Notes under the pieces: generated by a model
The model's input: the letters and a program-made list of their open reading frames with translations, nothing else
Told to the model about the DNA's origin: nothing
The model's database searches: none
Made by a program: the position numbers and the translations under genes
Part shown: in pieces, positions 25,959-49,100 of the stretch
Position numbering within the stretch: position 1 is the first letter of the stretch
How the letters are laid out: every line of letters begins with the position of its first letter
Assembly: GCA_015501605.1 (NCBI GenBank)
Contig: JADNRZ010000011.1
Location: 682,001-746,000 of the forward strand
Source of the DNA: Panaeolus papilionaceus
Lineage: Eukaryota > Basidiomycota > Agaricomycetes > Agaricales
Length of the DNA stretch: 64,000 bases
Reading direction: 5' to 3'

Positions 25959-27573
25959 ATGGAGCGCAACGACGATATGCATTCATCAAATTTGGGTGCG
26001 GGAAAAGGCTTTGAGGAGGAGAACCTCGATTCTTTCCCTGCTCTAGAGAGGGTCATTGTGGAGAGGAAGGGTACTAACGCAGCAACGGCTGAAGCATCGC
26101 TAGACACACCTCCTGGTCATCTGTCCCCATCGGAGGAAGAGTATCCTGGCAGACTCCCATCTAGCTATCGTCGTAAGCAAGTCGAGTCTATGCCAGAATT
26201 TCTTGTAACAATACTTCTAACATCTGTTTAAATTAGTTCCACTGACCGAGATCGCTCACAACACCCATATGCATGTGCTCAGGAATCTTCTCTTGAAACG
26301 CGTCCTCCTACATTTCCTGATGCGATGACTTATCCAGTAACAAGTTCCAGGCCATTATCTGATGCCCCAACTGTTTCATCGTCTGAGATACAGCCGGAAT
26401 CGTGCATCCACGCCGTCCCAGAGGAACCACCTGTCATTATTGGTCATGTCTTGAACGACAGCCATCCCATCCGTCGATCCTCCAATAGCCATTCGTCCAG
26501 AAGTGGACCTGTAAATCACCCGACAACTCCTTCTCCTCTGCCCAACCATGTGCACACTGTATTTAACGAATCTGAAGGGTATCCTTTTGTAATCCCTAAA
26601 CGAACTTCGACCTATGTCCTCGGATCCATAATGGTCCTCATTATTCGCCAAGCATACCTCTATGCACTCTTCAGACTCCCGGCTTTCTACTTTAGCCACG
26701 TCGCTATATTTTTTGAAGAAGCGGATATGAGTTTGGGTGAGCTTAAGTGGGCGGTTTTTGAGCAAGTGCTGAATTGTTCATCACACAAAAGTGACACCTA
26801 TCGTAGACTAAGCGATAGCTGGGCGGTGTTGGTTGACTCTCTTATGAAGGGATGCGAAACACTGAATGTCATATCTGCACTGCTTCTAACGTTGGTCCCT
26901 TTTCTAACTCAAGAATTTGATTACTTACAAACATCTTTGAAAAACAGAGCTATCTTGACGGTCCTTCAACTAGACAGTGCAGCAACAGACCCCATCACGC
27001 GTTTCTCGGCATTGGCCTCGATGATATGCGCCCTTCTGAGCCTCCTCTTTGGATGCATATATATCATCTGGCTAGGCACCATGAAAAAGTTACACAAAGC
27101 TGCTGAGATTGCATTGGAGACAAAGAAGTTGCGAACTTCAATTGTTTGGAACACATGGGTTATGTTGGCAATGCCTGCCATCTGGCTTGGTTGGTGAGTC
27201 CTCCATTCTCCATCTATAAATTTCGCTGTTGAACTTATTGCACACAAACGACAGGTCGATACTGTGCTACATTATCTGCATCATGTCTTTCCTTTGGAGA
27301 ACTGGCGCAGCCACAGACAAAGACCACGAACCACCGTCAGATCGTTCTATTCTCGCACCCTGCATTGCGCTTAGCGTGATTCTTGCTCTGGGGCTGGTGG
27401 TCCTTGCCTTAATTATCAGAACGGTGACTCGCTACGGCACGGCAATGGATCAGGCATGGCAACGTCGCATTTGGGGATGGGTCAGGGAGAGACAAGGAGA
27501 CAATCTATATGATGGTCTTGATCCTTATATTCAACCATACCCATCAGCAAAAAACCAGGCTGTAGATCTGTGA
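25959..27573 (+). CDS. Agaricomycete-type multi-pass membrane protein, family member B (C-terminal domain absent)
   Basis: Exon 1 starts at 25959 (MERNDDMHSS) and ends near 26180 at TATCGTC before GTAAGC. Exon 2 ends at 26890, exon 3 is 26948-27193 and exon 4 is 27255-27573. The 57-nt stretch 26891-26947 is open in frame, but homology to the other members makes it an intron. Core blocks match member A: YLYALFRLPAFYFSHVAIFF, ALLLT, SMICALLSLLFGCIYIIWLG, TWVMLAMPAIWLGW, YIICIMSFLWRTGAA. At the exon 1 donor one base seems to be missing compared with member A (CGACG before GT there, CGTC here), so the normal join is out of phase unless a weaker acceptor such as ACCGAG near 26255 is used. After the TGA at 27571-27573 the same frame stays open to 27768, so the stop may be secondary. 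Confidence 0.6.
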
Positions 27574-27766
27574 TATCAGCCAATGTCTAGTCAATATCAG
27601 GCTGTGATGTGGCGGCGACAGAAGTCTGAGTCTGCACACTCAGCTGTGGGCTTCAATCTGAGATCAAACGCCAACCTGATATTAAGTCCCAATCTGACAT
27701 CTGCTGAACTAGTGACGTCTGATTATACTACACATACCTATCGAATAAGTGCAACGAGAGAGAAAT

Positions 27767-27935
27767 AAAAAGATTTTTCTTTTTTGGAAGGGTTTGCCCA
27801 GCCGCTCATTCCACATTTGCATTGAATAACACCAGCAATGTAAATCTACGAAATTTGCCAATGCAAGGAATCGAACCCAAGCGTTGACTAACACCACAGA
27901 TTCTATAGCGATGAACCCACTAGTCCAAGAAACCT
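27767..27935 (-). mobile_element. tRNA-like, SINE-type element with Pol III boxes
   Basis: Read on the minus strand there is an A-box match TGGACTAGTGG (27927-27917), 39 nt, then a B-box match GGTTCGATTCC (27877-27867). About 75 nt downstream is an A-rich tail AAAAAAGAAAAATC (about 27786-27773), and just beyond it TTTTT (27771-27767), a Pol III terminator. The seven bases before the A box do not pair with those after the T arm, and the T stem is weak, so this is not a functional tRNA. The order box A, box B, A-rich tail, T-run is that of a tRNA-derived SINE. It lies between member B and the giant transposon. Confidence 0.5.
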
Positions 27936-28540
27936 TTGTTACTTTACAACAGCAAAGGAAATATATCCACGACCGCCTCAAACTTCAAAGGCGTGGGATC
28001 TAGCCTCCTCCAAGAAATCGGACATGATAATATTTATTACCGCCTGTATTTTTGACTAGATAGACACTCATTTCCATAATTTAATCCACTTATCATTTAT
28101 GAAGTATAGATAATAATTATGTTGAAAAAAAAGCTGGCCTTCAATGGGTCTATGTGATCTCAACCTGACATGCTCAATATCAATCAGATATTCGGCTGAT
28201 GTGTATACCTCAAGCTGAGTTCACAGTCAGTGATTGATTACAAGTAGAAATTAAGCAGACAAGATGGTGCGAGACTGAGATGTGTGTGATATACAGACTT
28301 CAATCTGAAATTAACATAATACACAACTGACAACTAGACAATCGATAGTCTGTGAAATTTCAATGTGATGCCAAACTGATATGCCAGTTTATGCCTGATA
28401 TTCAGCTAGTATACATTATTTATCTTAAATTTGCATAGATATGTGGAGTCTCTTCAGGTTTTAGATGATCTATGAGTTATCAGACTGACGAGTGACATAA
28501 CAGGTTATAGTGTTCTGTCCAGGTAGGGAAGTTGCAATGC
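27936..28540. other. Flank between SINE-like element and left TIR, no gene seen
   Basis: A low-complexity feel: degenerate words of the type CAATCTGATAT, TCAGATTG and CTGATAT recur from about 27590 to 28440. There is no open frame of interest. Confidence 0.35.
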
Positions 28541-30003
28541 ATTGACTGAGTGGTGCTATGGACTCAGTACAGTGTATTGACTGAGTGTGGTCCATGGACC
28601 GCCATGGATTTCCTTCATTTCGAATGTATAGCATTAATAGTTTAATCATTAGATCTAGTGTAATGAATGTATTTATTCAGTATTCAGCAGGTGGGGGCAT
28701 GGATGGAATTCCGGGGTGGCAATGGCGAGCGGGGGGTGGGTAGGATGATGTTGGTGGGTTGAGCGGGGATCATAGGCGGTATAGGTATAATGGTGGGTGA
28801 ACATAGAGGGCCAGGGTAGGATGATTGGTGTGACTGGATCAATATTGTAATTCCAGGGGGGAGGAGGGGGGGCGGGGGGGGTGGGGAGTGGGTTGGTGTA
28901 AATTGAGTAGGTGAAGCACGGAGGGGGTGCATATATATGGTGGGATATCGACAGGTCAACGGGCTGGGTAGGTGGTAATATTGCTGATACCAGGACAGAT
29001 ACCCGGGGAGAGCATTTATGGATAGATTTGCAAACGTGTATGAAATGGGATAGCAGCATTAACATGGGGGGGAGGGGGTTGAGGGTGATATATTGAAATG
29101 AGTAAATGTCAAGGGTGTATCCCGCAGGCAGGTCATAGTGAATGACTACAAGGTTGTTCAACCGCGGGATGGGTGGTGTCGATAAAATTCCGGGATGTGA
29201 ACAAAGAACCCGCGGGTTCAAACGAAAATGAATGAGGGGATATATGGTATGATAACGTCCGCGGGTTAATGATCAAGATGAACATTGGGCACTCCTGCGG
29301 GATTTAATATGATGGTAGAACACGAGAGACGCAGAGTTGCATCTGCGGAACAAGTCGACGCAAAAATACATGTCCTCTTACGATGAGATTGTCCGGGGGT
29401 TGAAGTGAGCGGGTGGTTCTAAGATAACGGCTCGTTATTCCGCGGATTGTTAATGATCGTATCGGAATGATTAAAAGTGTACTATCCACGGATGATGTAT
29501 ACATCGGGAGGATGGACTTGTGTAACCTGCAGACACCAACCGGACAATGATGTCTGACTTGTTAGCTCTGGATGTTGTTTGGCCTGCGGGTCTTTTCATT
29601 GTGATAAATGAAGATGAAGTTGCGAAATCTCCGCGGGCTGATGTCAGTGGGATGGTGCAGAAAAGACCCAGTACTTAATTGATAGTTCCCGCGGAGCAGA
29701 ATGAAAATGCTCTCAGAATTAATATGTGGTCGACCCGCAGGAAGCTCAACCTGCTCAAAACTGGATGCCCCGCGGTCCAAACCTACAATAACTTATATTG
29801 GAGTCACAGTCATTTGCCTCCCCGCGGAAACTCACTCACTGAAAATATTCCTTCTACATTTGATTCCCCAATTGACAATTCCCGCAGAGAAGAATGAGAA
29901 TGTTCTCAGAATTAATATGTGATTGACCTGCGGGATAACCTCTTGCTACATCCGGCGGTTAACGCACCGGAATGGAGACCATGCTTCCCAGGCTTGATTG
30001 ATG
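28541..30003 (+). repeat. Left terminal inverted repeat of the giant element
   Basis: About 1463 bp, matching the reverse complement of 47144-48615 almost base for base. The outer part has two copies of ATTGACTGAGTG separated by a spacer holding GACTCAGTACAGTG. Next is a G-rich stretch (28690-28920), then a zone (29160-29960) with a CCGCGG-like word every 40-80 bp. Exact CCGCGG occurs at 29162, 29210, 29259, 29440, 29631, 29689, 29770 and 29822, with one-mismatch forms such as CCTGCGGG and CCCGCAGG between them. Open frames inside the TIR are present in both copies but show no domain and are not called as genes. Confidence 0.9.
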
Positions 30004-30255
30004 CAGGCTCGTGGAGACATCAAATACATGCTGAGCGTGAGGTCACTGGATCGGAAACAAATATAGCTGGGATGAATGATCCGCACCGGGAAATAAAAGA
30101 TCCGGATTCCAGGATTATGGGGGCTGTGTAATCCGCGGAACGGTTAGCTAAGCGAAACCATGTTCCACCGTTGCACTTTCAGCCACCATTCGTTGCTTTC
30201 CACACATCCATCACAAATTGTTTGCCTGACTCGCCGCACTGATTTTAACATCAAA

Positions 30256-33200
30256 ATGACTTCCAATCTTTCCAAAATCGCGAAGAATATCGAGGCGCAA
30301 ATGACAGCCCTGTTGACTGTACCCGAGGGAAAAGTGTTGCAAAGTTGGGATGATACATACCCCGACGTGGTAAGCCCCGTTTCTCACTGTGTGATAACAT
30401 TATGTTTATTCTGATTGCTTTCAGTAGCTCAAGGGGCTGCAGCAACTCAGAGCATTACCCAATGGCAATCTATACGCGCGCCAATGGCCATTTGCACCCG
30501 CTGTCATTCTCTGTCAGCAAATGGTTTTGCGTGGCACATTGGATGCAAAGACACGGGTAAAGGAGGTGATCAAAAAGTATTCACCCGACGTTCCTGTCGT
30601 CGGACCCGAGGCATCAGCGGGAGGAGTTCAGGAAACGTCTCCAGAGATGGTAGCGGGATCCAGTGGAGGGAACACGATGGGAGATAAGGTTGGGGCTGGA
30701 CCAGGCAAGGGGAAGGGGAGCGGAGCAAGGGTAATCGTTGAGTCAGCAGGTTACGAATTGACAGAACGTTCCGCAGCTGGAGCGGGGGCACACCAGAAGG
30801 ACAAGGCTGCATTCGCAGTAGGCGGACAGGGGATGGGGATGGGTCAGACGACTAAGGGGGACGTACGCGGCCTTCAACAGGAGAGGAACAGGCAAATTGC
30901 ACTGGAGGGCTCACTGGAAGCAGGGAGAGAAACCTCAGGGAGCAAGACCGGGAAGCGGAAACGACCTGCTGTTGCCAGCCCGCGGAAAGACGATGAAGAG
31001 GAGGAGCAGGAAAATCGCGCAGGAACATCAAAACAGGTCAGGGACCACAAAAAGAAGCCACGTACAGACGAGGAAACCGATACCGACGACGCTGCGCTTC
31101 ATTACCAGTCATTGGACAAGGGGAAGGGGAAGGGGAAGGGGAATGCCAGGGAAGCCACGGAAGATGACGAGATGGAAGTCGATGAAATTACCCGCCCCGG
31201 TGACGACGATGACGACTTCGACATGCACGAGGGGGATCCACTGGTCCGCAACGCACCAGTTGCTGAAGATCAAGATGACGATGAAGACGACGACGAAGAC
31301 AACGATGAAGATCAGGACAACAGAGACGATGACAGCACCCTGCCGCCGCCTCGTAAACCCAAAGGCAAACCCGCTCCCAAAAAGAACACTCAGAATCCCC
31401 CGGACGACGATGAAGTCGTACCAGCCGGTGCCATCAGAGCACCTCCTCCTCCTCGTGGGAAGGAGGCTACATGGAAGGCTAAGCCGTTCGCAAGTGTTGA
31501 AATCAACGACCCCCCATGCACCATTTGCGCTGGTGAAGCCAACCCGGGCGATGGTCCAATTGTTTGCTACAAGCAGTTGGCGTCTACACCGGGCACAACG
31601 AAGAAAGGAAAGGGCAGGGAGAAGATCGAAGCAGGTGCGTGCTTCTACTGCGCACATGGTCACAATCCCTGCAGTCTTGTTGTGCTCAGAAAAAAGACCG
31701 CAGCTGAGCAGACTCAGGAAAAGAAAGAAGCAGCGGAAGAAAGGAAGCAGAGAGCAGAAGAGCGGAAGACCGGCGGGAAGAGGGGTGGCACAAAGAGGAA
31801 GTCGAAAAAGAAGACAGCCCCGGCGGAAGGTAAATGTTTCATCGCCTTCCTTCATCCATGCTAACAACAATATGTCTAGATCTCGTTGAGACAGTACGCC
31901 AACTTACGGAAAGAGTGGAAGAGCTCGAAGGGGCAAGAAAGAAGGAGATGATCGCCTGGGAACTACTTGAGCTCTACAAGAAGCTCATGGATGATAATAT
32001 ACGTAAGATTCTAATCGCATATGCATCTGTGAGGGAGAACCTCGTCGAGGTCATGCGACATGTGGCCTTGCTGGGTTGGCAGGACAACCACCTGCATAAT
32101 CGTATCAATGCGATATTGCTTGGGTTTGACGCAGCGTTGCCGGAGGAATACAGAGCCGCGAAGTTCCAGACCTGCCCGGAGGCGCTCAGGGTGAAGCTAA
32201 CCAATGGGAGGGTTCTCGAAACGTCAGGAGACGTTGACTCCCCCAAATTTGGCGTTTTCCGAACGACGGGGGAGGACTATGGGATTACTCCTGTGGGTGA
32301 TTGGCCCGCGGGAATGAATCGTTTCCCTCGCATCAAGCCAAATGAGGCAATAATAACGTCGAGGACTCCGCTAGAACTCCAGCAACGATTGCCCAACGCT
32401 AGCAGAGAACAGCCACCTACCCCACGTCGCAATCAAAGTTCCGCCGTACAGGGAGCCATTGCGCCTCAGCCTGGGCCTTCCGGCTTCTCCCCGGGCCAAC
32501 GTGAACGGGTGACGGCTGCCTCGGTAGATTCCGGTCCCTCACGTTCCACCCTTGTTCCCAATGCCCCTGCATCTACAGCAGCGGTTGTGCCATCTCCTCC
32601 TGTTACCTCCACTTCCACCCTCAATCGCAATCAGCCTGCTCCGGGAACACAACGTCCCCAGCCCGTCCAGCCCCCATCCGAAACCACTTCCATGCCTAAC
32701 CATCCTTCGACTTCCACAGCCCCGGTGCATCCCATTGCATCAGCATACAAGAAATTTGTGCCTCCCCATCCCTCTTCTTCTACGCAGCCCGCGCCTGGTA
32801 CATCGGGAACAACTGCTATTCCGGCCGCGACTGCTCCGTCAGGATCAACTTCTATTCATCCGGCGACTGCCCCATCGGGATCCGCCATCCCCGCTCCCGC
32901 GGGTTCAAAGCCTACGATGGCTGGTCAGCGACCATGTCCCATCACAAACCCGCGGGTGCAAACAGTGTCCGATCCTGGTAGCCCAAGTCCCGTCCACCCT
33001 CGACCAACCGGACTTTCTCTCACTGCATCCATCAGCAATGCAGTACCTGCTGCCCCCGCTGTGGCTGGTCCTTCCAGTTCACAATTATCGACAAGAGCTA
33101 TTCCCCCCTCATCCGCGCGAGACGAATCCTCGTTCTCTGCCTTCGGTACTCCCTTGCGTCAAAGTCCACCACCTGACGTGGAGATGGACAACGACGAAGA

Positions 33201-33285
33201 TGCAGTTCCTGCAAGGGGGGGAGGTAGAGGGGGTCGCGGTGGTCGTTCTGGCTGCCCCCGGCCCGCTGGACGCAGGAAGCACTGA
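30256..33285 (+). CDS. Element gene E1: large zinc-cluster, acidic and coiled-coil protein of unknown function
   Basis: Exons 30256-30369, 30428-31829 and 31880-33285 join in phase to 973 residues. The short N-terminal part (MTSNLSKIAKNIEAQ, then GLQQLRALPNGNLYARQW) is helical-looking. A low-complexity region follows with basic (GKRKRP) and very acidic runs (codons at about 31190-31340). A cysteine/histidine group spans residues about 401-453: CTIC, a lone Cys, then CFYCAHGHNPC, consistent with a zinc-binding fold. A Lys/Glu-rich coiled coil (about 31700-31820) and a second predicted coiled coil (LTERVEELEGARKKE) come next. The last 300 residues are Pro/Ser/Thr-rich and end in a Gly/Arg-rich tail. 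I know no named domain. Position inside the TIRs suggests an accessory DNA- or chromatin-binding role; this is inference. Confidence 0.75.
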
Positions 33286-33423
33286 GCCTAATCCCGATCG
33301 CAATTTGGACTTTCATTTTTGACTCGATGTTTTTTGGACATATTTCTATCTCATATCACTCTCATGTACAAGTTCCTGATAATATTTTGAACATTTAAAT
33401 ATATGACAATCCGTTTGCTGTGA

Positions 33424-35596
33424 CTATTTGGGAATCTGTGAAATTTCGACTGGAAGTTTATTGGGTTTTTGAACATGTCGTTTTGGTTGGACAGATGATA
33501 TGGTTTCAGTGGGAATAATGGGATCACGAGCAGGAGAAACATTGCCCCGTTCGACGGAGGGACTTTGATGAATGTCAGATACCGGGGTGGGCGGTCCGGG
33601 GACAACTGGACGCTTCTTTGTGAGTTTCTTAGATTTCCCCGGCAGTGGGGTTTGTGGGGAGTCATCCGAGGGAGCAATGAGCACCTCAGGCACAACTGTG
33701 GGCCGTTTCTTGGGTTCTTTATGATGCTTTGGCTTTGATGGCGTCGATCTCTTCTTCCTGACAGTCTTTTTTGGTATTCCAGTGGTTAACAGTTGTTCGG
33801 GTCCATCCACCAGGGTGAGAATGCTTGCTGGGAGCTCATCACTCTCCTCCTCCGCAATCGTTGGCAAGGTGGCCGGGGGAGACCATGCTGATGGAACAGA
33901 CTCTTCAGAAGGTGAAGGAGTTGGTGGTGCCACATATGGAGATGTGTCATCATCTGTGAGAAAGCGGGGAGCAGATATGTCATCATCGGGATATCTGGCT
34001 TTCACTGCCCCGGCAACATTCCCGGTGTTATCAACAGCACTCTTGGAATATGTGTTGAGAAAACGAAATGCCTGGTGTGGTCCAAATTCCAGTTGCCGTC
34101 TAGCCACATGCGAAAGGAATTGGTTAATGATGTGCTGTGGGGTATTCTTGGCATCCCGGAGCGGGCCAAGCGGGTGACGAGGTAGATATGCAGGATGGAA
34201 GAATACTGCTGAATGTTTGTTGATGGCTGTCCAGGGTACATGAGCCTTTCCACCGCCACCGCCGCGTGCAAGATCTTGAGAATATTCAATATTTCATGAG
34301 TGACATAACTGACATTGTTTCATACCATAATGAATGGATAGATACGAAGCATAATATTTATTCAGCAACCTTTTGTTCAGATTACCGGGCCAAGGCATTG
34401 GCAAAATGGGAAAGCCATCCTCCGTGTCTGCAAGTCGTCCCTCCATCAGACTGTTGCCAAGGATGGTTGCTTGGACTTTGTAATGCTCCTGTCTCTCCGC
34501 CAGTGAACGTGAAGGAGTGGATTCAAGGTTGACAGCTGCTTGTACTGTCAACGGCCCCGGACCTAGTTCAGCATTCAAAGTGTTTGGATCAGCGCGTGGG
34601 CCCTGTCCCGTTGCTAGCATAAGTTTCTTAATGTAGTTTTCGTACGCAAGAGAAATGGCTAGGATTTCCGGGCGGCACTCATCCCAAAAGTCCCATTGTC
34701 CGCGGGCATCCAAGATTTCCGCTGCGTGTTTGTGACTAGCAGGCGTATTCAGAACATTGCTCCGAAGGTGGGCTGTGCAAAACTCACATGAGAAGCTTCA
34801 CATCACCATTCTCCTCGACAAAGGCGGAGACTTGAAAGGAAAATGTTCCCATTTCGATATGTTGGAGTTTATGAGCTTGCTTCATCTGCTGAAGACACCG
34901 TTTGAGATAAATCCTTCAACCCGCCACCGGAAGGTCAATTTTTATTCCCCCGGAAGTATTTTCCGCTTACCGCTTTTTCACATCAAATGTGTACCCGCTC
35001 GTCTTTGCCCTCTCAATGTCCTCTTCAAGTTTGCAAAGCTGCTCACGGTCCATTCGTGCCAGAATACGCTTTACCGCTTGGTGCCTGTACTTGGACACAT
35101 TTCTTGTTGTCAGTTCTTCAACCTCCAACAAGTCCTTGATCTCGGAAATGACTTTTTTTCGCTGACTGTTGTATAAGAAGTTGGATTTCGTTATGTGAAT
35201 AGAAGGGGGTTTCAATGGTGAGGTAGGGATTTTGGAGCGCCAATTTTTGCCAACGTATTTCCTGATTAACTACAACCTTACATTAGTATCAGCATTCAAA
35301 TGACACCGGAAATTACGCACTTTTTCCCACTTTTCAGTCAGACCATTTGGTTCCACAATGCGAGCATGGGCGCCTAACTCCCTCCAATGATTAATCATAA
35401 CGGGAAAGATGTTGTCACGGATGTAGGAGGATCTCCCTGCTGCGTCTCGACCTGACAAAGCTCTGAAGTCCCGCTTATAATCCCACATTAGATCTAACTC
35501 TTGTGGTGTAAAATATTTCGAGTCTTTACGCCCCTTTCGGTGCTTCGGAATTTTGGGAACTGGGCTTGAGCTGGGTGAATTTGATGTTCTCGCCAT
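33424..35596 (-). CDS. Element gene E2: putative DNA-binding accessory protein
   Basis: Five exons join in phase with no stop: 35596-35321, 35269-34971, 34913-34788, 34735-34326 and 34274-33424, giving 653 residues. The N-terminus is basic and Ser/Pro-rich (KIPKHRKGRKDSKYF). A compact region rich in aromatic and basic residues follows (LDLMWDYKRDFRALSGRD, then LTEKWEK joined across intron 1 to LIRKYVGKNWR), reminiscent of a Myb/SANT- or trihelix-like fold. Then comes a helical stretch (VISEIKDLLEVEELTTRNVSK). The C-terminal third is low-complexity with Pro and basic patches (KKTVRKKRSTPSKPKHHK). The DNA-binding idea is an inference from residue pattern only. It is convergent with E1 and divergent from E3, with only about 170 bp between the E2 and E3 start codons, so the two may share a promoter. 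It is the only gene besides E1 in the element without visible lesions. Confidence 0.68.
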
Positions 35597-35765
35597 GACA
35601 CAATGAGGAGGTTTGGGGCAATGGAGGGGGAGAGCAAGTATTAGAGCTTCGTGAGCATTGTCTTTCTTATCTGGTGGAGATAGAGTGGAGATCAATATAT
35701 ACCTGATCTGGTGTTACTCTTCTGGCATTTACCCGAGTCCTGTGTTCTTGTCGCTTTCCACCAAC

Positions 35766-38700
35766 ATGGATAATGTTCCAAGTCTGCATTATGCAAAAGC
35801 ACGCCCAAAAAGAAATCAAGCAATTAATCCATTGGCAGGGCTGGAAAAGAAATCCAGCTCCGGGTCAACACTGTCAATTCCGGTGAAACGAAAACGCAAG
35901 GATGGTTTTGATGAGACGATCTTGGAGGAACACAGGTTGTCAGACTTGGTTGGAGGACGATTGGGGCAATCAGGATCAGCAGAAAACACACACAATATTC
36001 CAGATGCACCATACAACAGCTTCATGCCACATACAGATAACCCTATGGCAGCCACCTCGAGTTTCCGCCCTGCTCCAGATCTGTTTGAACAACAGTTGAT
36101 GCAGTCTACACTGCCTATAGATCTGGAGCTAGACCGTGCTCCAATCCTTGAAGCGGAGGAAAACGACGACAGCCTCTCCACCAGGGTAAGAGTTGATTGT
36201 GAGTCTCTAATGGATGGGGAACTGATAGTCCGGCAGACTCAGCAGGGATATATTGAGGAATTTGTTGCCCGGATCGATACAATCTTACCAGCATCAACAG
36301 CTAACGAGTTTCTGGACGAAGATCGCCAGCTGTGTCACCACTGTTCTTCCAATAACCGGAAGCGCCGTGGAATCTGGCGCTGCCAGGACTGTTTTAATCC
36401 AGAAGCCATGTGCCGGGCATGCATGTGACATGCACACATGGCTAATCCTTTTCATCAGATCGAATGCTGGCTGGGTGACCATTTCCGCCCAGCAGCCCTC
36501 TGGGAGGTTGGTGTGTACATTGCTCCCGCCCACCACAAAAAGCAGACTTGTGAGCAATGCAAGACCCGGAATATACTCATCGCGCAGGCACAGGACCGGG
36601 AACGAAGGAAAGATGAAGAGGAATTGATCCTCCTCAAGCGCGGAAGATTCCCCCCCACCCCGGGTTCAGTGGGTGAATCACCGGACAACAATCTCCCTGA
36701 CGACAATCCCCTGGATACTTCCCTTCCCAATCCATCTTCCGAGGATGACCTGACTGATGAAGAATTCGAACAAATGTTGGAGGAAGCCTATCGGCTCCAT
36801 GAAGAGAAAGGAAGCACATTTCTTGGGTGCCCATCGGGAGATCCAGACATTGTTCATCCTGATGTCCAATTGTTGTTACATTCAGATCTCAAGAGGATTG
36901 TCCACACCAATGGTATTCACCACCTCCGACTGTTTACTTGTGATTGTGGAGGGAATGCTGGGATGATTGGGGACCTTGTTGCTTCTTCCCTCATGCCAGC
37001 ATCATTCACTGTTCCAAAAACCTTCTTCACCCGCCAACTCCTCGATTTCAGTCGTTTGTGTAATCTCGAACTGAAATGTTCCTCCTATCAATTTCATCAA
37101 CTTCTCCGCTGGATGACATGCCCACTATCTCCCGGTACAGTCAAGAGCTTGTATCATGAATTTCAGCGCATGTGTCGTCTGTGGCGCTGGCTCAAAAAGC
37201 TGACTTGGGCAGGTTTTCAGTTTGAAGGGAAGCCTGCGGAGCCTGCCGCTGCAGCCTTTGCTATTTTTTGTGCAGCATGCCCTCAACCGGGAATCAACTT
37301 ACCTGGGGATTGGTCCGATGACCCTGATCAGACCCTCTATGGACGGACCTTTGTCGCTGATAGGAACTTCAAGGCTGACCATGTTCAACAAAAAGGGAAG
37401 GATGTCCCCCTGTATGACGGAGCGGGAATTATGCCAAATACGCATCAGTACTGGGAGCACATTGAGGGTGTGCAAGAAGTTAGGACGGTAAGCTGTGATA
37501 CACCCTTGTTGAGAGGCTGCTCCTTATCTTATTTCCATAAAGAAAGCTGCATGTGATAACAGCTTTCGTGCGATTGACAATGCACTTAGATCAACCAAGG
37601 CATGTGACATTACAGGGGTTGTCGGGATTGCATGCGCCCGTCATGGTTGTTATTGCCCAAATGGCGTTGTGGATCTCCAGTGGGGTGAACAACAGAAAAA
37701 TGTAGACTTCGCTTTTGTCAGGTCTTTGCAGCACACATCTGTCGATATCCGCCAGAAAGTTACCCTCCTCTACGATATTGCTTGTCAATATTCAGTAAAC
37801 CTCCGGCGTCGAATTGATGGCATGCTGTCCGCGGGAGTTCCGAATCTCCGGGATTTGATCATCGACCGGGCAATCGGCTTATTTCACGTTCATGCTCACA
37901 AGGATTCATGTTTCTTCCGATTCTCCCCTACTTTTATCCCTGGCCTTGGAACCGTTGCGGGAGAGATTCTCGAGTCCCTCTGGGCAGCGTTGAACGAAAT
38001 ATCAATCAGCTTACGCACAGCATCCCTCTCCTACCGGGCGGAAATGATGGATGACCACGCCACAGACTCGAATCATAAAAAAATGCTGAACATGGCTGCA
38101 TCTCTGACGACACAACATGCGGAGGCGATGGAGAATGCCAAGACACACTCAACAATCTTTGCTGAAATCAATGCAAGAGCACATGACCAACAGTTGGCCG
38201 TGGGGTGGAAATGAAGTATCGAGGAAGCGGAAGCCGTTCGAATGACAAAGCCGGAAGTAATGGATATATATGCTGCGGATATGGCCAAAGTTGACTCCAC
38301 CAACATTGCAGCAAGTGAACGGCGTATAGCGACCCCAAATACTGTTCTGGAAAAATATTTGGATACTGCCATCATGGTGCAGGAACGACAGTGAGTGCTT
38401 CATTTCGGTATTGGACTTGATATCGCATTCAATGTTATTCCTGGTCAGAATTGAATTAAAACGCTTGATCAAATCCGCTGGCACGACTCCCGCGGACACG
38501 GAAGTTACTCTCATTCAAAATCGACGAACATCCTTGCTAGAGTTCATCAGCACACTGAAGGACCTGGAAAATCACGCCGGGATCAAATTAATTTCATCCC
38601 AAACACCCGGTTTGATCTCTTCTCCGACTGACTCCGGAGCGCTGCCGGAGCAATTGGTTTTGGGACTCCCCTCCAACAAGAACTTGGTGGAACACCAACT

Positions 38701-39514
38701 TGCCTGCGAGACTGAGCTCAATATGCGCATCGATCAGGGGCAACGACATCTTGACAATATTCGTGAACTTATCGTCGAAAAATCACTTCAATATTCTCAC
38801 GTCATCAAGATAGCGAAGACAAAATCTATCACAACGCGATCCCGTCAGAAGATCAACGACATTTCACACCTGCTGGACTTCCATTGCGAAGTCTATAGTT
38901 CCTGTCGTGCGGCCATTATAGCTCTCAGTCCCAACAACCGGGTCTTGGATGCACTCCGGCCGTTGGGAAGAAAGGACCTCAATGCTAGCTCAGCTCTGCT
39001 GCTGCCGAATTCCAAGAAGTCGACGAAAATCAGCCTGTCCCTCTCATGGATCTGGCGTTCACGGGCAATATTGCGAACGGGACTTTCGCCCGCGGACAGT
39101 GACACATCAGATGCTGTTGCGACGCAAGAATGTATGTATTGCACCCTCAACTCCTCAATGTTTGTATTTCATCATGCACAAGTTCTTCGAATTCATTGGT
39201 TACGAGCCAGGGCGCTATCTCGAAGATGGTCAGAAGAAGTGAAACTTATTTCACATGAGATGCAGTGGACTGTCCGATATTTCTGCTATCAATCCACTAA
39301 ATGGCGTACTTGGGCTCAGGATCCCAAGTTCTCAAAATCATCCCCGGAGTATTTGAGTTATGCAAAATCGTCCCCGGAGCACGCAGCGTACATACAATCG
39401 GCCGTGGCATATGCTAAGCGGCAGCAGGATTCTTGGATCAAGCTTTCTATTCAGGCTGACATTGCATTCAAGCAAATGAATCCTAGTTACGTTTCTCCAT
39501 TCAATAACAAGTAA
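35766..39514 (+). pseudogene. Element gene E3: KDZ transposase with CxC2-type cysteine cluster, two in-frame stops
   Basis: Exons 35766-37487, 37543-38390, 38449-39131 and 39183-39514 join in phase to 1194 codons. Residues from about 190 form the cysteine cluster found next to KDZ transposase domains: CHHCSSNNRKR, CQDCF, CRAC, then FHQIECW and a histidine-rich end. The transposase domain follows exon 2: DITGVVGIACARHGCYCPNG, VDLQWGEQQKNVDFAF, LLYDIACQYSVNLRRRI, HVHAHKDSCFFRFSP, GEILESLWAALNEIS. The C-terminal part has the conserved VLRIHWLRARAL and EMQWTVRYF blocks. Two TGA codons interrupt otherwise perfect frames: 36426-36428 (residue 221, inside the cysteine cluster) and 38212-38214 (residue 798). 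Both are consistent with a C-to-T change in a CGA arginine codon. The transposase is expected to cut and paste the element; this copy is probably dead in cis. Confidence 0.85.
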
Positions 39515-40134
39515 AATTTTATTTCGTACTGTACACGCTTGCTAAATTCAAAAACAAAATCCAAAGTTCATGGAAACTAATCCGACGTGAAGTAAAGTTG
39601 AGTGTCCGAACCATAATCAGTCCCATCGACAGAAGACGAGCTGTGAGTTCCCCGGGCCTGCTGATTACCTCCCGCTTCCACGGACGCAGATTGACCATCA
39701 TCAACTTCGGACTCTGATGTCCACTCCTCATCATCGTCGCTGTTGTCCTCATCATCACCATCCTCATTACCATCATCCTCACCTTCATCATCTTCATCTT
39801 CTGTTTCATCATCTTCGTCGTCGTCTTCCTCTTCGTCGTCTTCTTCTCCGGTATCTTCTTCGTCATCTTCTTCTTCTCCGGTGTCTTGTTCGTACTGATT
39901 ATCCTCGGTCATCTTGCCCTCACCATGCTTAATCTCAGGGTTGATTCCCGCTGCCGGACCATCCAAGGAGAGTCAAGTCAGCCCCTGTTGGATACTAACG
40001 TCATCTGCCCCGCTGCGTCCCCGACCATTCTCAACATCCATCTCCAGGCTTGCATCTGTGCAAGAATCATTAGTTTACGACATTGCATCTTGTAATATTT
40101 GTAAGGCTTACTGGGGGGCGCATGTACAAGAAAA

Positions 40135-40413
40135 TGTTGTAATTATTAGATTAGATTCATTTTCTTCATCTCGCTTCACATCACATGACCTCCGTCCGCT
40201 CCCTTAGTTTAGTTTCTATTCGCGCTGGCTCTCCTCAGTCCATATTGCATGTACTGAGGTGAGCTACAAGTTATTCCACTCGTTATCCAGCTATTTACTT
40301 ACATTACCCTGTAGTTTGTCTACCTACAGGTACTCTCTAATATATCTCAGTCCATATTGCATGTACTGAGTTTGTCTACCTACAGCTCTCTCTCGTGACC
40401 TCTATACCCAACA
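40135..40413 (+). repeat. Copia 5' LTR
   Basis: 279 bp from TGTTGT to CCCAACA. Internally it repeats CAGTCCATATTGCATGTACT twice and TTTGTCTACCTACAG twice. The sequence after it, TAAGGTTATGGGCCCC, is the presumptive primer-binding region; the tRNA was not identified. Confidence 0.92.
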
Positions 40414-40595
40414 TAAGGTTATGGGCCCCGCCCGCGTCTAATTATCTCGCTGGCAATACTCTCCTGGTCTTCTCATTGGCTCACATTTCCCTCATCCCCG
40501 CTCTTGCTCCATTCCTTCACAATTCCATTCATTCCACTGCCACCTCATCACTGCTTCGCTCTCACACTGTCAAACTCTAACTCTAATTACCAACT

Positions 40596-43500
40596 ATGGC
40601 AACCTCTTCATCCTCGAAATCTATTCCTGGTGCATCTAACCGCTTATTCGACATCCCATCTTTGGAAGATGATGGCTCGAATTACCAGACTTGGAAATTC
40701 CGAGTACAGATGGTCTTGGATATACGAGGACTCTGGAATGTGGTCAGTGGATTAGACCTCAAACCAACTCCTCTAGACAGTTCGGCAGACAGTACCAAGA
40801 AGGCTACGTATCAGGACTTGCTAGAGCGATGGCAGCTACAGGATAAGGAAGCACGAGCCCAGATTACCCTCACGTTGAAGGACGAGCCCCTCGCTGGTGT
40901 TTTCCACCTCACTACGGCTTTCGAAATCTGGGACCAGCTCCAACGTCGCTACGAAGGGAAAGGGAAGTTCACCATCGCCTACCTCATCATGGAGATTTTC
41001 CGAGGCACCCTCACCGAAGACGAGTCACTTGAGCAGCAGCTCAACGCCATTCGCCATAAGGCTCACATCCTATCGACCCTTAGTGTCGCTCTCCCGGATA
41101 AGGCCATCGCAGCTGCTCTCATTCTCCAACTCCCTTCTGCCTATGACACTCTTCGAGAGTTGCTCATCATGCAACCAGAGGATAAACTCACATCCGATCA
41201 TGTCATTGATCAGATCCTCACTGCTGAGAAGGCTCGCAAACAGGAATCCCAAATCGCTCTCTTTACGCGATCATCCCAAAGATCTTCTTCCGGTTATCCT
41301 GGTGGAAAGTCTGCGGGTGGGAAGAAGGACAAGGAGAAGAAGGACGTAAAGTGTCACCACTGCAAGAAGAAGGGCCACGTCAAGTCTGAGTGTCGGAAAC
41401 TAAAGGCCGAACTCAAGGCGAAGGAGAAGACATCGGAAGCCACTCCAGCACCATCCTCTTCGGAGAAGAAGGATAACGGAAATGCTTCGACCTCTCATTC
41501 AGCCAAAATCGCCACACTTGACCCGTCTCCAAGGTCCGATGCCGATTCGGAACCTGGTGTCATTCACCTCTTCATGTCTCGTGCCGCTGCTACCGAAAGT
41601 CGCTCCTCACTCACCAAATCGTGGATTCTCGACTCTGGAGCTACAGCCCACATGACCTCGAATCGTGATTGGTTCATGTCATACACCCCTCTCGCCTCTC
41701 CTGTACGTGTCTATCTTGGAGATGAGTCCTACATCAAGGCGACTGGAATTGGCCGTGTCCAGATGAAGCTTCATCACGCTGATGGATCCTTCACCACAGC
41801 GATCTTCAACAACGTCCATCACGTACCTGATCTCAATGGAAACCTCATCTCGGTTGATGGTCTCAATGATCGTGGCCTCGGAGTTACCTTCGTTAAGGGT
41901 AAAGGCACGATTTTCAATGCCAAAACCAATGAGGTTCATGGTTCCACCACTCGCTTAGGCAAGCTCCATGTAGTGAACTGTACGGTGATTCTCCCAGAAG
42001 TCGCCTACTACTGCGCTCCAGCAACTCCTTCAGATCACCTCCCTGACTCCAGCGATGATGATGATTACGAAGAGGCTCTTCTGGCTTCAATTCCGAAGCA
42101 GAAATCGTCCAAAGCCTCCTTCTCTCTCTGGCATCGTTGTCTTGGCCACATCATGCCTGATTCTGTGCGCAAACTTCATCGCAAGAACATGGTTAATGGC
42201 ATGGAGATCTCTGAGGATGACTCTTCCTCCCTTAACACCTGTATTCCTTGTCTCGAAGGAAAGCAAACTCGCGCCCCCATCCCCAAAGTCTCCAACATTG
42301 AACACCCACGTGTCCTTTTCCGCATTCACTCCGACGTCTGTGGGCCATCCCAGACTCTCTCCCAAGACGGCTACCGCTACTTCATCACATTCATTGATGG
42401 AAAATCGAACTATGCCAAAGTTCGACTCCTCAAGAACAAGTCGGATGCCACAGTCAACCTTCGTCAGCTCATCGCTCGAGCTGAGGTTGAAACTGGGGAG
42501 AAAATCGATCGTTTTCGCAACGATGGTGGAGGTGAATACATCAAAACGGAACTGTTGGAACTCCTGAAGGAAAAAGGGATCCATTTTGAGGATACGAACC
42601 CTGATACACCGCAACAGAATGGAAAATCTGAGCGGATGAATCGTACCCTTCAGGAACGGGCGGTCACTTTGCTTTCCGAGGCTGGTCTTCCAAAGAAATA
42701 CTGGTCCTACGCCATCCTTCATGCTACATACCTCCACAACCTTTCCCCCACATGTGCCAACTCTGACGACGTCACCCCCCACGAAGCTTACACTGGCAAC
42801 AAGCCATCCATCGCCCACCTTCGTGTCTTTGGCTGCAAAGCTTGGGTTCATATACCTAAGTCTAAGCGCCAGAAGTTCTCGAAACGAACCATTGAATGTG
42901 TATTCCTAGGCTTTGCTGAGCATAGGAAAGCTGACATCCTTGGTGAGAAGACTTCGAAGGGGATTGGACGAATTATCCAGTCCAGGGATGTCATATTTGA
43001 TGAGGGGGGATCGTCTGGCACTACCAGGGTTGTCATTAGCGAATCGCCTTCGCGAAACGACTCTGAAACTGTGGAAGAAGTGGTGGTAAATGCTGAGGAG
43101 CTAGGGGGGAACACTAAACCTGAAGATAGCGACGTCCCAGGCACTCAGGACAAGCCTAAAGGCAAGGAGAAGCTCAAGGACAATCAGGACGACGACGACG
43201 ACGATAGGAAACCTGGAAATAGTGCCCCAGATCGCACTAGTGGCTCCAGCAAGCCTGCCAGCACCCCTACAACTCGTTCTCACGATATCTCTGGAACGAG
43301 CGAACGCGCGGCCAAACGGACTTCAGATTCGGATTCGCCGACCCCGAAAACGTCCAAATCGACTGCCACGTCGAAATATCCGCGCGATCCACCTTGGAAA
43401 TCGTCCCTACCATATCCATCTCCTCCTCCTCCTCCTGAAACACGTCGTTCTACCCGAAATCGTCGCCAGCCTGTCAAAGACGACGACGCGCGCTACTCAG

Positions 43501-45238
43501 TGACGTCCTATGCTCGTAGGAAGGCCTCCAACGCTCCTGAACCTCCAGCACCACAGGAAACGCCTCCAGAACCCCAGAATCTCGCCTCCAACTCCACTAT
43601 CACTCCTCCACTCCATCCTGCTTCAGTGGGCGACGAATCAGCGAAGACTTCGCGTCTAGATCGTGATCCACTCACCTACGAAGAAGCTATGGCTGGACCA
43701 GATGCTCCCAACTGGAAAGTATCAACAGTCAAGGAGCTGAGTCGTTTCGTGGAGATCCACCTTTTCGACCAACGAGGGAAGGAAATTGTACCTCGTGGAC
43801 AACGTCCAGTCGATTGCAAGTGGGTTTTCAAGCGAAAATTCGGTCCTGATGGCAAGGTCATTGAGTACAAGGCTCGTCTCGTCGCCAAAGGCTTCACTCA
43901 GGTCGAGGGCATCGATTACGACGAAACATTTTCACCGGTCACCAAACAAACTACCATTCGCTCCCTTCTTGCTCTATCAGCTCGCCTTAAATGGCACCTG
44001 CATCAAGTCGATTTCAAATCTGCTTTCACCAACTCAGATCTCGACCGCGAAATCTACATGAAGATGCCACCTGGCTGGACCGAAGGGAATCCAACTGATG
44101 TCTGGAAACTCAACAAGGCCCTGTATGGACTCAAACAGGCCTCGCGCGAGTGGTACAAGGTCGTCCGGAACATGCTTGAGAAGGAACTTGGTTTCACCCG
44201 AAGCGACGCCGATCATGCTCTTTTCTACAAGACAGAGGAGAATGGTAACCTGGTTATTCTAGCTGTCTATGTTGATGATACCCTCATCGCCTGCAAGGAT
44301 CTCGACATCGTCGAACGGTACAAGGAAATTTTGGACGACTTCTACGAAATTACCAACCTTGGCGAAGTCAACTGGATCCTTGGAATGCATGTCAAACGCA
44401 ATTTCAAAGCTGGCACCATCTCAATCTCACAGGAACAATACATCAACACCATTCTCGAACGTCATGGCATGGCAATTGCCGTCCTGTCTCTACTCCCATG
44501 GATCCCAATGTCCAACTACCTACCCTTGAGAAGGCTGAAGTCGATATCACTGACTACCAGTCTCGTGTAGGTTCCCTCATGCACCTTATGGTGTGTACTC
44601 GGCCCGACATCGCCTATTCAGTGGGCGTTGTCTCTCGCTATTCTGCCACTCCTGGCGAGGTACATCTCACTGCTGTCAACCGCATTTTCCGCTATCTCCG
44701 TGGAACATCCGACTATGCTCTGGTGTACGACAGCACCTATGGTCCGGATGAACCTGAAGTCTACTGCGACTCAGACTGGGCAGGAGATCACAAGACTCGT
44801 AAGTCTACTTCTGGATATGTCACCATTCTGTCTGGTGGCGCCATTTCTTGGATATCCAGGAAGCAAACCTGTGTCTCCCTATCCAGTACCGAGGCCAAAT
44901 TTATCGCTGCTTCCACAGCATCTCAAGAAGCCGCCTGGCTTCGTTCTCTCTTTACTTCCCTTGGTTTACCTCCTTCTGAACCTACCACCCTCTTGATTGA
45001 TAATCAACCTGCTATCCACAATATCAAGAATGGTACAATCAATGAGCGCACCAAGCACATCGATACCAAATTTCGCTACATTTGCGATCGGTATGAAAAC
45101 GGGATTATTCATCCTGAATACGTACCCACTGGTGATCAGGTTGCTGACGTTCTTACGAAAGCACTTGCTCGTGAAAAGTTCACTCGATTTGTTTGGGATC
45201 TCGGACTTCGTTCTCCTGCTTATAATCCAGCTCGATGA
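40596..45238 (+). pseudogene. Copia Gag-Pol polyprotein with one frameshift in the RT region
   Basis: The first frame runs 40596-44570 (1324 codons) and the second continues to 45238. Gag with YQTWKFRVQMVL is followed by a zinc knuckle CHHCKKKGHVKSEC (residues 253-266). The protease has WILDSGATAHMT (active-site Asp near residue 346). The integrase has LWHRCLGHI, CIPCLEGK, the DDE residues in IHSDVCGP and FRNDGGGEYIK, and NGKSERMNRTLQE. RT has ARLVAKGFTQVEGIDYDETF and YVDDTLI (near residue 1224). RNase H has CDSDWAGD, KSTSGY and LSSTEAKF. Near 44473-44478 (ATGGCAATTGCC) one base is missing, so the expected NCRPVSTPMDPN reading lies in the next frame. This cuts off the end of RT and RNase H. 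Identical LTRs alongside this lesion mean the frameshift is recent, or was copied from a defective parent. Confidence 0.9.
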
Positions 45239-45245
45239 GTGGGCA

Positions 45246-45524
45246 TGTTGTAATTATTAGATTAGATTCATTTTCTTCATCTCGCTTCACATCACATGAC
45301 CTCCGTCCGCTCCCTTAGTTTAGTTTCTATTCGCGCTGGCTCTCCTCAGTCCATATTGCATGTACTGAGGTGAGCTACAAGTTATTCCACTCGTTATCCA
45401 GCTATTTACTTACATTACCCTGTAGTTTGTCTACCTACAGGTACTCTCTAATATATCTCAGTCCATATTGCATGTACTGAGTTTGTCTACCTACAGCTCT
45501 CTCTCGTGACCTCTATACCCAACA
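45246..45524 (+). repeat. Copia 3' LTR
   Basis: 279 bp, no difference from the 5' LTR noticed on direct reading. It starts 8 bp after the Pol stop codon, and the short GAGTGGGCA before it is the probable polypurine-like primer. Confidence 0.92.
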
Positions 45525-47143
45525 AAAGAAAATCAAGTGTCAATCCCGAGTCAACGGGCAGTAGAGGCCAATCGGCTGGAGGCAGAGCACTGCCCCAGAA
45601 TGTCTCACCATCAATGAGCTCCTGATCAGTAGCATCAAGGGACAAATGTGTTTCAAAGGCGGGCGGAAAAATTGGGGTCAGGGAGAACTCTCTGAGCGGA
45701 GCGGGTATAAAATTTGACCCGCCGAGAACGCTGGGGCGTGATTTTGGCGGAGTAGAAACCTCCCCCGGGATTGTTGCAAGAAAGTCGAGATTGATAGATG
45801 ATGGGGACGCTGGATGAGCGGGGATTGCGTTGAGGAAGTGGAGGTCGAGTGATGGCGTATCCCGGGGAGGAGTTGAAGGATAACTCGGCATTGCAGCAAG
45901 GAAGTTGAGATCGATCGGTGGTGATGATACCGGAAGTAGTGGCACAGTGTCAAGGAAGTCGAGGTTGGGTTCGAGAAAATCGAGACTGGTGGATGAAGGC
46001 AATACCGGGGAAGCGTCTAAGAAGTCGAGACTCATCAGATTTGGCTGATCAAAATTCCCCAGAAACTCCAAGTCAAACATGTTCCCCCTTCGCCTTCCTT
46101 GTTCCCCTCATTCTCACCCACGGCTTCGTCTTGCTCCTGATCCTCCATTTCACCCCCTCCCAACTGTGGGTTAGACACCCCGGTGGCCAATTCCTTCTCT
46201 TCAATCGCGTGGATTGCGGTCCGCCAAAGCTCCCAATGAAGAACCTCTTTTTCGCTCAGTTTCCCCCTTTCGAAGTCAAGAAACTCCTTGACATCTCCCT
46301 GTTCAGTCACTTCCTCCCAATCCAAGGTCAGCAGCTGGAGGAGAAAGAGGTGCTTCGGGTACTGAGTCACTGGAAGCAAGTACGAAGGCCTGGTCTTCCA
46401 AGATGAGTCACTAGCCCACTTGTCGTCGATTCTGCGTACATGCTTGTATACAACTTCAAGTTGTGTTTCGAAGTCGTTCATAGCCACAGCAATGTTCCGA
46501 CGCCCGATAATCTCCGCAGGACCATATTCCTGAGTGGACTTCTGCCACCAGTTATAGGCGAAGGTCACGGGTGGGAGCCATGCTTCCATGACTTCGGGCA
46601 GATTCTGCCAATGTTCCGCTTCAAGGGGAATGTGGTCGACATCCCCACGCCCTATATGCAAAAGGTGGGATCCAAAAGCCTCCAAAGGGGGGCATAAGAC
46701 GGCTTGCGCACGCCCCCAGCTTCCACTGACAGCAGCGACTGCCAGGAAATAATCCTGCTTAGGGTCAGCAATTGTTGAAGGTTGAAAACATTTCAAACTC
46801 ACGAGCTCGGCAATGAAGCCCCTTTCCAACCATTTTAAGTGGTTAATGTTGTTTTCATCCCGCCCCGCCGCGGATGCAAAATCCCGGATAGCCAAAGCAA
46901 TGCTTGTAATACGAAAGCCGCCATATGTTACGATGTCCTGAATGTAGTAATGACGAGCAATTGTGTCCCCTTCATGGTACTTGGGCATCCCGTCGAGCTT
47001 ACAACTAGCTTTGTTTGCATTCCACAAACTAGAGGGTTGACGTTTAGCGAAAGGCATTGTGTTGGTGGTTGTTGGAACCAGGAGAAGGTAATCAACTGAG
47101 ATTGATGGGGATCGATTGTCATGATAAGATCACATGACGATAA

Positions 47144-48615
47144 CATCAATCAAGCCTGGGAAGCATGCTCTCCATTCCGGTGCACTAACTGCCGGATGTA
47201 GCAAGAGGTTATCCCGCAGGTCAATCACATATTAATTCTGAGAACATTCTCATTCTTCTCTGCGGGAATTGTCAATTGGGGAATCAAATGTAGAAGGAAT
47301 ATTTTCAGTGAGTGAGTTTCCGCGGGGAGGCAAATGACTGTGACTCCAATATAAGTTATTGTAGGTTTGGACCGCGGGGCATCCAGTTTTGAGCAGGTTG
47401 AGCTTCCTGCGGGTCGACCACATATTAATTCTGAGAGCATTTTCATTCTGCTCCGCGGGAACTATCAATTAAGTACTGGGTCTTTTCTGCACCATCCCAC
47501 TGACATCAGCCCGCGGAGATTTCGCAACTTCATCTTCATTTATCACAATGAAAAGACCCGCAGGCCAAACAACATCCAGAGCTAACAAGTCAGACATCAT
47601 TGTCCGGTTGGTGTCTGCAGGTTACACAAGTCCATCCTCCCGATGTATACATCATCCGTGGATAGTACACTTTTAATCATTCCGATACGATCATTAACAA
47701 TCCGCGGAATAACGAGCCGTTATCTTAGAACCACCCGCTCACTTCAACCCCCGGACAATCTCATCGTAAGAGGACATGTATTTTTGCGTCGACTTGTTCC
47801 GCAGATGCAACTCTGCGTCTCTCGTGTTCTACCATCATATTAAATCCCGCAGGAGTGCCCAATGTTCATCTTGATCATTAACCCGCGGACGTTATCATAC
47901 CATATATCCCCTCATTCATTTTCGTTTGAACCCGCGGGTTCTTTGTTCACATCCCGGAATTTTATCGACACCACCCATCCCGCGGTTGAACAACCTTGTA
48001 GTCATTCACTATGACCTGCCTGCGGGATACACCCTTGACATTTACTCATTTCAATATATCACCCTCAACCCCCTCCCCCCCATGTTAATGCTGCTATCCC
48101 ATTTCATACACGTTTGCAAATCTATCCATAAATGCTCTCCCCGGGTATCTGTCCTGGTATCAGCAATATTACCACCTACCCAGCCCGTTGACCTGTCGAT
48201 ATCCCACCATATATATGCACCCCCTCCGTGCTTCACCTACTCAATTTACACCAACCCACTCCCCACCCCCCCCCCCCCCCCCCCGCCCCCCCTCCTCCCC
48301 CCGGAATTACAATATTGATCCAGTCACACCAATCATCCTACCCCGGCCCTCTATGTTCACCCACCATTATACCTATACCGCCTATGATCCCCGCTCAACC
48401 CACCAACATCATCCTACCCACCCCCGCTCGCCATTGCCACCCCGGAATTCCATCCATGCCCCCACCTGCTGAATACTGAATAAATACATTCATTACACTA
48501 GATCTAATGATTAAACTATTAATGCTATACATTCGAAATGAAGGAAATCCATGGCGGTCCATGGACCACACTCAGTCAATACACTGTACTGAGTCCATAG
48601 CACCACTCAGTCAAT
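47144..48615 (-). repeat. Right terminal inverted repeat of the giant element
   Basis: About 1472 bp, inverted relative to the left TIR. The main length difference is a C-run near 48266-48284: 19 Cs here against 8 Gs at the corresponding place on the left. Scattered single-base differences are seen (for example CTACCCCGG here where the left copy gives CTACCCTGG). The CCGCGG-like series is mirrored. Confidence 0.9.
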
Positions 48616-49100
48616 ACAGTGTGACTTACCTATGTGTTCTGTCATTTGACTGAGAGGGCATTGTTAGAATAGGTCATGTGAGCAGCTGGTGGCTCACGTG
48701 CTACGTTGATGTACATATTCGGTAGTTTAGCTAATAATTCAACTTGCCGTTGTACTCCGTACTTCTGTTGTGGCCACTAGGTGTCTGTGTCTGTGTCTCT
48801 ATCTGTGTCCTCCCTCGTTTTTCTTGGTTTTCTCCCCCTCCACATTTTATTCACTTCTAACAGGCATGGGCAAACTGAGATCCCTCATAAACAAAGACTC
48901 TATCATGACGTGACACAGCTATGCACAACTTGGTACTGTAGTGTTGTATCGGAGAATGATATATACCATATCAAGCTGATATTTACATTTCTACGACAGT
49001 TCGTAGATCTACTATCAATTTTTTTGCTGATGCCCCCGCGACGAGAGGTCAACCAGCGGTAGTCAACGCCTCTCTCTGCCCCCACAATTATACCCACAGG
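48616..49100. other. Flank of right TIR, no complete gene
   Basis: No recognisable protein. A possible acceptor (ATACCCACAG at about 49100) precedes the open frame of the next feature. Confidence 0.4.

Follow-up and report, generated by a model that had tools for sequence, protein, structure and literature searches.

KDZ elements are common in mushroom genomes, and little has been found on what they require for movement. The Kyakuja elements of Agaricomycetes (Kojima 2025, PMC12730594) combine a KDZ-superfamily transposase with 5'-CA..TG-3' termini, 7-bp target-site duplications (TSDs) and an accessory gene; the two families described from Laccaria carry TET/JBP and lack terminal inverted repeats (TIRs). 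The active elements KDZ1, KDZ2 and KDZ3 of Cryptococcus neoformans are 9.2-11 kb long, with TIRs of 139-241 bp and TSDs of 8 bp or 4-8 bp (PMC12810828), and in Pleurotus ostreatus CxC2 precedes intact KDZ genes (PMC7641404). Here we describe a KDZ element in a 64,000-nucleotide stretch of the 50.85-Mb genome of Panaeolus papilionaceus (the window; G000:C3:682001-746000, the contigs being labelled C2, C23, C27 and so on). It shares the transposase, the CA..TG termini and a probable 7-bp TSD with Kyakuja, whereas it has TIRs of 1.48 kb, no TET/JBP, and three other genes, which we call E1, E2 and E4. The Cryptococcus elements resemble it in having TIRs and TSDs, and differ in their shorter TIRs and in a cysteine cluster of the CxC1 rather than the CxC2 type; the accessible text names no E1, E2 or E4 in them (PMC12810828). 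We consider it likely that the element is a KDZ-superfamily DNA transposon of the cut-and-paste kind that normally comprises four genes, with the E genes serving as partners in transposition or its regulation. Three unrecognised partner genes in a fixed set, together with exact ends, TSDs and empty sites, make a testable system.

The element spans 28520-48636 (20,117 bp), or about 14.7 kb after subtraction of a nested Copia retrotransposon. Its features, in window coordinates, are as follows:

28513..28519, no strand, left TSD TTCTGTC, abutting the left terminus
28520..30003, + strand, left TIR, 1484 bp, terminus CAGGTAGGGAAG
28589..28600, no strand, palindrome GGTCCATGGACC, 12 bp, 70 bp inside the left end
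30256..33285, + strand, E1, six-cysteine zinc-cluster-like motif; predicted introns 30391-30442 and 31830-31879; 3' end uncertain
33424..35596, - strand, E2, multi-exon, basic N-terminus (by eye) and conserved FPILPxxW block; 3' end uncertain
35766..39514, + strand, KDZ transposase bearing a CxC2 cysteine cluster; frame interrupted by a stop at 36426-36428
39577..40133, - strand, 3' part of E4 beyond the Copia: acidic tail and conserved C-terminus
40134..45528, + strand, nested Copia long terminal repeat (LTR) retrotransposon interrupting E4; its two LTRs, of 284 bp each, are 100% identical
45529..47057, - strand, 5' part of E4: conserved core containing WW, followed by a series of LxFLxxxP motifs
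47144..48636, - strand, right TIR, 1493 bp, terminus CACATAGGTAAG
48556..48567, no strand, palindrome GGTCCATGGACC in the right TIR
48637..48643, no strand, right TSD TTCTGTC, abutting the right terminus

The two TIR arms (28524-30003 and 48632-47144) align with 1468 identities over 1491 columns. An earlier note, made from the window sequence, had recognised these inverted repeats, which are real, and had placed their outer limit at 28541; the true termini lie slightly outside it. The left terminus was located by comparing 28 other related ends with one reference end (L032). Homology to the reference begins exactly at CAGGTAGGG in 13 of the 28, and 21 begin no more than 3 bases away from it. 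Of the remainder, five have their start 4 bases further inside (one diverged end and four of the CACATAGG type) and two have it further out. The CAGG so defined is window position 28520. The right end is CACATAGG at 48636, and the CA before CATAGG is also found in four other such ends (L015-L018); the termini read 5'-CA..TG-3'. Two further CATAGGTAAG matches (C27:27089 and C30:100311) are devoid of the CA and have flanks common to both, and these are taken as internal sequence rather than element ends.

Evidence for insertion comes from the flanks, which are the two halves of one repeat (27542-28519 and 48863-49032) with 19 other matches in the genome at 68-99% identity; two frames of this host repeat were tested and yielded no Pfam domain. 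In six copies of the repeat read at the site, the target is present once and no element is found, making them paralogous empty sites. The target is TTCTGTC in one copy, which reads ...TTATAGTG TTCTGTC ATTTGACTGAG..., and TTCTGAC in the other five. The stretch repeated at both ends of the window element is GTGTTCTGTC, and because GTG precedes TTCTGTC on both sides, the window copy alone would permit a TSD of 7-10 bp. A second TSD of 7 bp, AAATACT, surrounds a 2.1-kb derivative (C35:48736-50836) whose right terminus has diverged. A first guess of 9 bp was dropped in favour of 7 bp, the length indicated both by the C35 copy and by the terminus common to the four other ends of the CACATAGG type. 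This differs from Zisupton, likewise a KDZ-superfamily element with TIRs, for which PMC12730594 gives a TSD of 8 bp.

Four genes lie between the TIRs on alternating strands (E1 +, E2 -, KDZ/CxC2 transposase +, E4 -), as the earlier note had proposed, and its further points that three of them have no recognised domain and that the outermost genes start near the inner borders of the TIRs also held up. The predicted starts are at 30256 for E1 and 47057 for E4, 253 bp and 87 bp inside the borders, and at 35596 for E2 and 35766 for the transposase gene, the latter two diverging from a 169-bp spacer. The transposase matches the Pfam family KDZ (PF18758) with E 5e-41 and 141 bits (cut-off 26.6) and CxC2 with E 1.9e-13 and 51 bits (cut-off 27); with a PF18758 domain and a CxC cysteine cluster, the element belongs to the KDZ superfamily. 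The window copy has no uninterrupted transposase, since its frame is broken by a stop codon (36426-36428) that the copy on C23 does not have; membership of the superfamily is independent of that. The Copia element, already noticed in the first reading, is indeed present, and its position needs correction: it sits inside E4, with the acidic C-terminus falling on the far side. With E4 interrupted by the Copia and the transposase frame by a stop, the window copy looks defective and is probably no longer autonomous.

The E proteins each show conserved features. In E1, the motif C-x2-C-x(5-13)-C ... C-x2-C-x5-C followed by SL recurs in all four copies read, and we take this motif to be akin to the fungal zinc cluster, although no Pfam zinc-cluster family matched; the exon after it resembles a coiled coil by eye, and acidic and proline-rich stretches were seen in the same way. 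The WW of the E4 core is invariant across 13 aligned copies. The short motif of the E4 tail is repeated six times in the C23 copy, five times in those on C27 and C14, and four times in the window. Shuffled tails gave means of 0.10-0.25 and maxima of 2-3, in a control that is not independent since the motif pattern was written after the tails had been viewed. An acidic stretch and a C-terminus of like pattern close the tail in both the window and the C23 copies.

The association of these genes with the transposase extends through the genome. Searches of the Panaeolus papilionaceus genome, merged by script and including the window, recovered at least 83 KDZ, 27 E4, 22 E2 and 8 E1 loci and six TET/JBP (PF12851) matches, none of the last inside the window element. 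The 12-kb surroundings of KDZ matches make up 3.7% of the genome, while they take in 24 of the 27 E4 loci, 19 of the 22 E2 loci, 6 of the 8 E1 loci and 4 of the 6 TET matches. The homologues found thus sit mainly beside KDZ genes rather than apart from them, so that the first of the two outcomes which the earlier note had named as refuting its reading did not occur. Their arrangement is also conserved: E4 is downstream and convergent at 21 of the 24 KDZ loci that have it, E2 upstream and divergent at 18 of 21, and E1 upstream on the same strand at 6 of 6, while 16 KDZ loci combine a divergent E2 with a convergent E4. For E1, the zinc-cluster query produced one other weak match (E 9.1e-4) and the coiled-coil exon query seven. 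A second whole element of 15,710 bp (C23:2157612-2173321) has 1.1-kb TIRs and the mirrored order E4, KDZ, E2, E1. The earlier claim of a TIR-bounded KDZ transposon with accessory genes is therefore supported by retention of these genes across many elements of the genome. Profiles of the E families would help annotators to find KDZ elements and to keep these repeated genes out of host gene counts. Two E-bearing loci, C2:536-544 kb and C34:2209-2217 kb, have identical KDZ domains and equal spacing, which suggests a recent copy or duplication.

To place the transposases, a tree was built from 29 KDZ domains chosen from the 83 loci, nine of the rows being pieced together across frames or stops. 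All 17 rows with E2 and/or E4 group together with a support of 89/93, and a separate clade (98/99) holds the four TET-linked rows. As regards a place in the Kyakuja clade, what this tree, made up of rows from the one genome, shows is that the window transposase stands apart from the TET-linked ones. The ratio of nonsynonymous to synonymous substitution rates (dN/dS) ranges over 0.09-0.60 in seven pairs of E4 cores and over 0.23-0.52 in five pairs of middle E2 exons, and one pair of E4 tails gave 0.30; by this measure E4 and the middle exon of E2 are evolving under constraint. Many diverged copies retain the E genes alongside this type of transposase, and on that ground E1, E2 and E4 look like functional components of a real KDZ lineage with several genes rather than passengers.

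MuDR, VANDAL, En/Spm and Harbinger all pair a transposase with dedicated DNA-binding or anti-silencing partner genes. The window element is like them in being a multi-protein DNA transposon, and unlike them in having an unrelated transposase and E genes that match no Pfam family above cut-off. Nuwa has a Myb/SANT partner (PMC12730594). In the window element, the KDZ protein would cut and join the element ends, while E1, with its six-cysteine cluster and coiled-coil-like exon, and E2, with its basic N-terminus, may be DNA-binding partners that recognise the TIRs or promoters, perhaps at the subterminal palindrome, and so organise or regulate transposition. E4, combining a WW core, tandem short hydrophobic motifs and an acidic tail, could act as a multivalent bridge or as a transcription activator. 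The layout of the element fits shared control of these genes: the outer genes, E1 and E4, each have a TIR immediately upstream, and the 169-bp divergent spacer would serve both E2 and the transposase gene.

Whether the same set occurs in other basidiomycetes, as the earlier note had suggested looking for, was addressed indirectly, through protein searches. The KDZ protein search returned 261 matches, of which the 120 listed include many Agaricomycetes, the top one being from Panaeolus cyanescens with 70% identity. Searches that need common exact words recovered E4 once among 2974 candidates and, with a profile, E2 twice among 7990 candidates scored, in both cases in P. papilionaceus alone; a protein of the element matched the hypothetical protein BJ165DRAFT_1528687 of this species. 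An E4-like segment follows the transposase in all four KDZ models of more than 1500 amino acids among the 120 listed, namely those from Panaeolus cyanescens (P0016), Psilocybe cubensis (P0038), Crassisporium funariophilum (P0078) and Flammula alnicola (P0079); the limits of these segments were cut by hand, and the gene models may be wrong. A joint alignment of the four segments matched the E4 profile in hhalign with E 5.5e-8 and a probability of 94.8%, a score reached by none of 100 column shuffles, and the reversed control gave E 0.21. The motif used to measure tails is present in 31 of the 120 listed proteins, and among these 31 a tail exceeding 120 amino acids is found only in three of the four long models. 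A broader proposal, which we advance tentatively and at somewhat below even chances, is that a widespread Agaricomycete KDZ lineage moves by a co-inherited four-protein machine, that E4 represents an undescribed family of transposon proteins with a tandem-motif acidic tail, predicted in other genera as one protein with the transposase, and that the E genes replace the TET/JBP module of the related KDZ lineage. None of E1, E2 and E4 is described in the portions of the KDZ literature that were consulted; the founding paper (Iyer et al. 2014, PNAS) may mention associated genes.

Several observations weigh against the likely four-gene reading. The roles given to E1, E2 and E4 rest on sequence features judged by eye; none of the three matches a Pfam family above cut-off (stray matches of E 0.01-0.05 occur in single members), and sequence searches of the PDB returned nothing for E2 and one match for E4 that is not credible (E 0.074). 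At 53 of the 83 KDZ loci there is no E1, E2, E4 or TET within 12 kb, and E1 was found at just 8 loci. A matching TSD is present in two of the five elements with both ends read (the window and C35 copies) and absent in the other three (C23 and two on C27). The E-bearing clade does not reach 95/80, the mark for good support, and long branches drew a warning from the tree program. The dN/dS values of E2 exon 1 (3.61, 1.5, 0.72 and 0.36) come from a stretch that includes non-coding bases and are uninformative. As regards the other genera, the E4 hidden Markov model missed all four long KDZ models; the sole single-segment hhalign run, of P0038 against E4, gave E 0.0012 and 19% probability; and an E4-like segment within one gene model with KDZ is necessarily on the same strand, unlike the convergent E4 of the window.

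The main rival explanation is that E1, E2 and E4 are anti-silencing factors that maintain expression of the element by countering host methylation or heterochromatin and have no part in the transposition reaction. A parallel is offered by Kyakuja, for which Kojima 2025 (PMC12730594) proposes TET/JBP as a means of escape from silencing. Moreover, four TET/JBP matches in the present genome lie 3.7-4.1 kb upstream and on the opposite strand of other KDZ genes (C10:954035-958508, C23:2139167-2143192, C24:387378-391852 and C61:16043-20083), which is the position of E2; searching 12 kb around these four loci revealed neither E2 nor E4. Judged from these matches, TET-linked and E-bearing KDZ elements coexist in Panaeolus papilionaceus, and the comparison separates two solutions within one superfamily, the elements bearing TET/JBP and those bearing E1, E2 and E4. 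Nonetheless, no enzyme-like domain was found in E1, E2 or E4, and a fixed-order trio with DNA-binding-like features would suit a transposition or expression complex equally well; on balance we regard a purely anti-silencing role as unlikely, if worth serious consideration.

Returning to the four-gene transposon, a quite different account of its extra genes was raised by the earlier note, which saw in it a giant cargo-carrying element and a basidiomycete counterpart of the Starships. Starships are mobilised by a tyrosine-recombinase captain, carry variable cargo and extend over tens to hundreds of kilobases. The window element resembles these large fungal elements in its length and in holding several non-transposase genes inside its TIRs, and a KDZ captain moving variable host cargo could be imagined on that ground. 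The likeness is not borne out further: diverged copies keep the same three genes in the same order, the E-bearing transposases tested form one clade, dN/dS is below 1 in E4 and the middle E2 exon, no tyrosine recombinase appeared in a Pfam scan of 10 frames inside the element, and TIRs and a 7-bp TSD are present. The length of about 14.7 kb, too, is just moderately above the 9.2-11 kb of published KDZ elements (PMC12810828). The constant gene content in this genome led us to reject Starship-like cargo, which we hold to be very improbable. Segmental inversion or a chance nesting of unrelated repeats, to which the long inverted arms and repeat-rich surroundings lend some colour and nothing else does, is rejected with near certainty on the TSD, the paralogous empty sites, the common terminus of the copies and the second element in the same gene order; the other refuting outcome named in the earlier note, an unrelated segmental inversion, thereby fails as well.

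Some minor observations concern the ends of the element and their surroundings. Of 30 related ends, 21 have the subterminal palindrome in perfect form, as one of two variants differing on both sides, GGTCCATGGACC and GATCCATGGATC. It is a candidate dimer site, though because these ends are related and not independent, its conservation is suggestive only. Just outside the right TSD lies a repeat of about 200 bp (window about 48661-48862) with 16 near-full matches elsewhere in the genome at 97-100% identity; none of the six paralogous empty sites has this repeat. Among 41 matches to the left TIR, 37 share just its first 100-150 bp or so, and many of those fetched (L013-L038) continue into a different sequence that they have in common, 1-1.6 kb long and internally repetitive; these partial matches, often with only one end found, look like short derivatives or relatives of the element. 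Finally, the 1-kb bins that hold the element ends have strong GC skew of opposite sign, +0.33 at 28001-29000 and -0.37 at 48001-49000.

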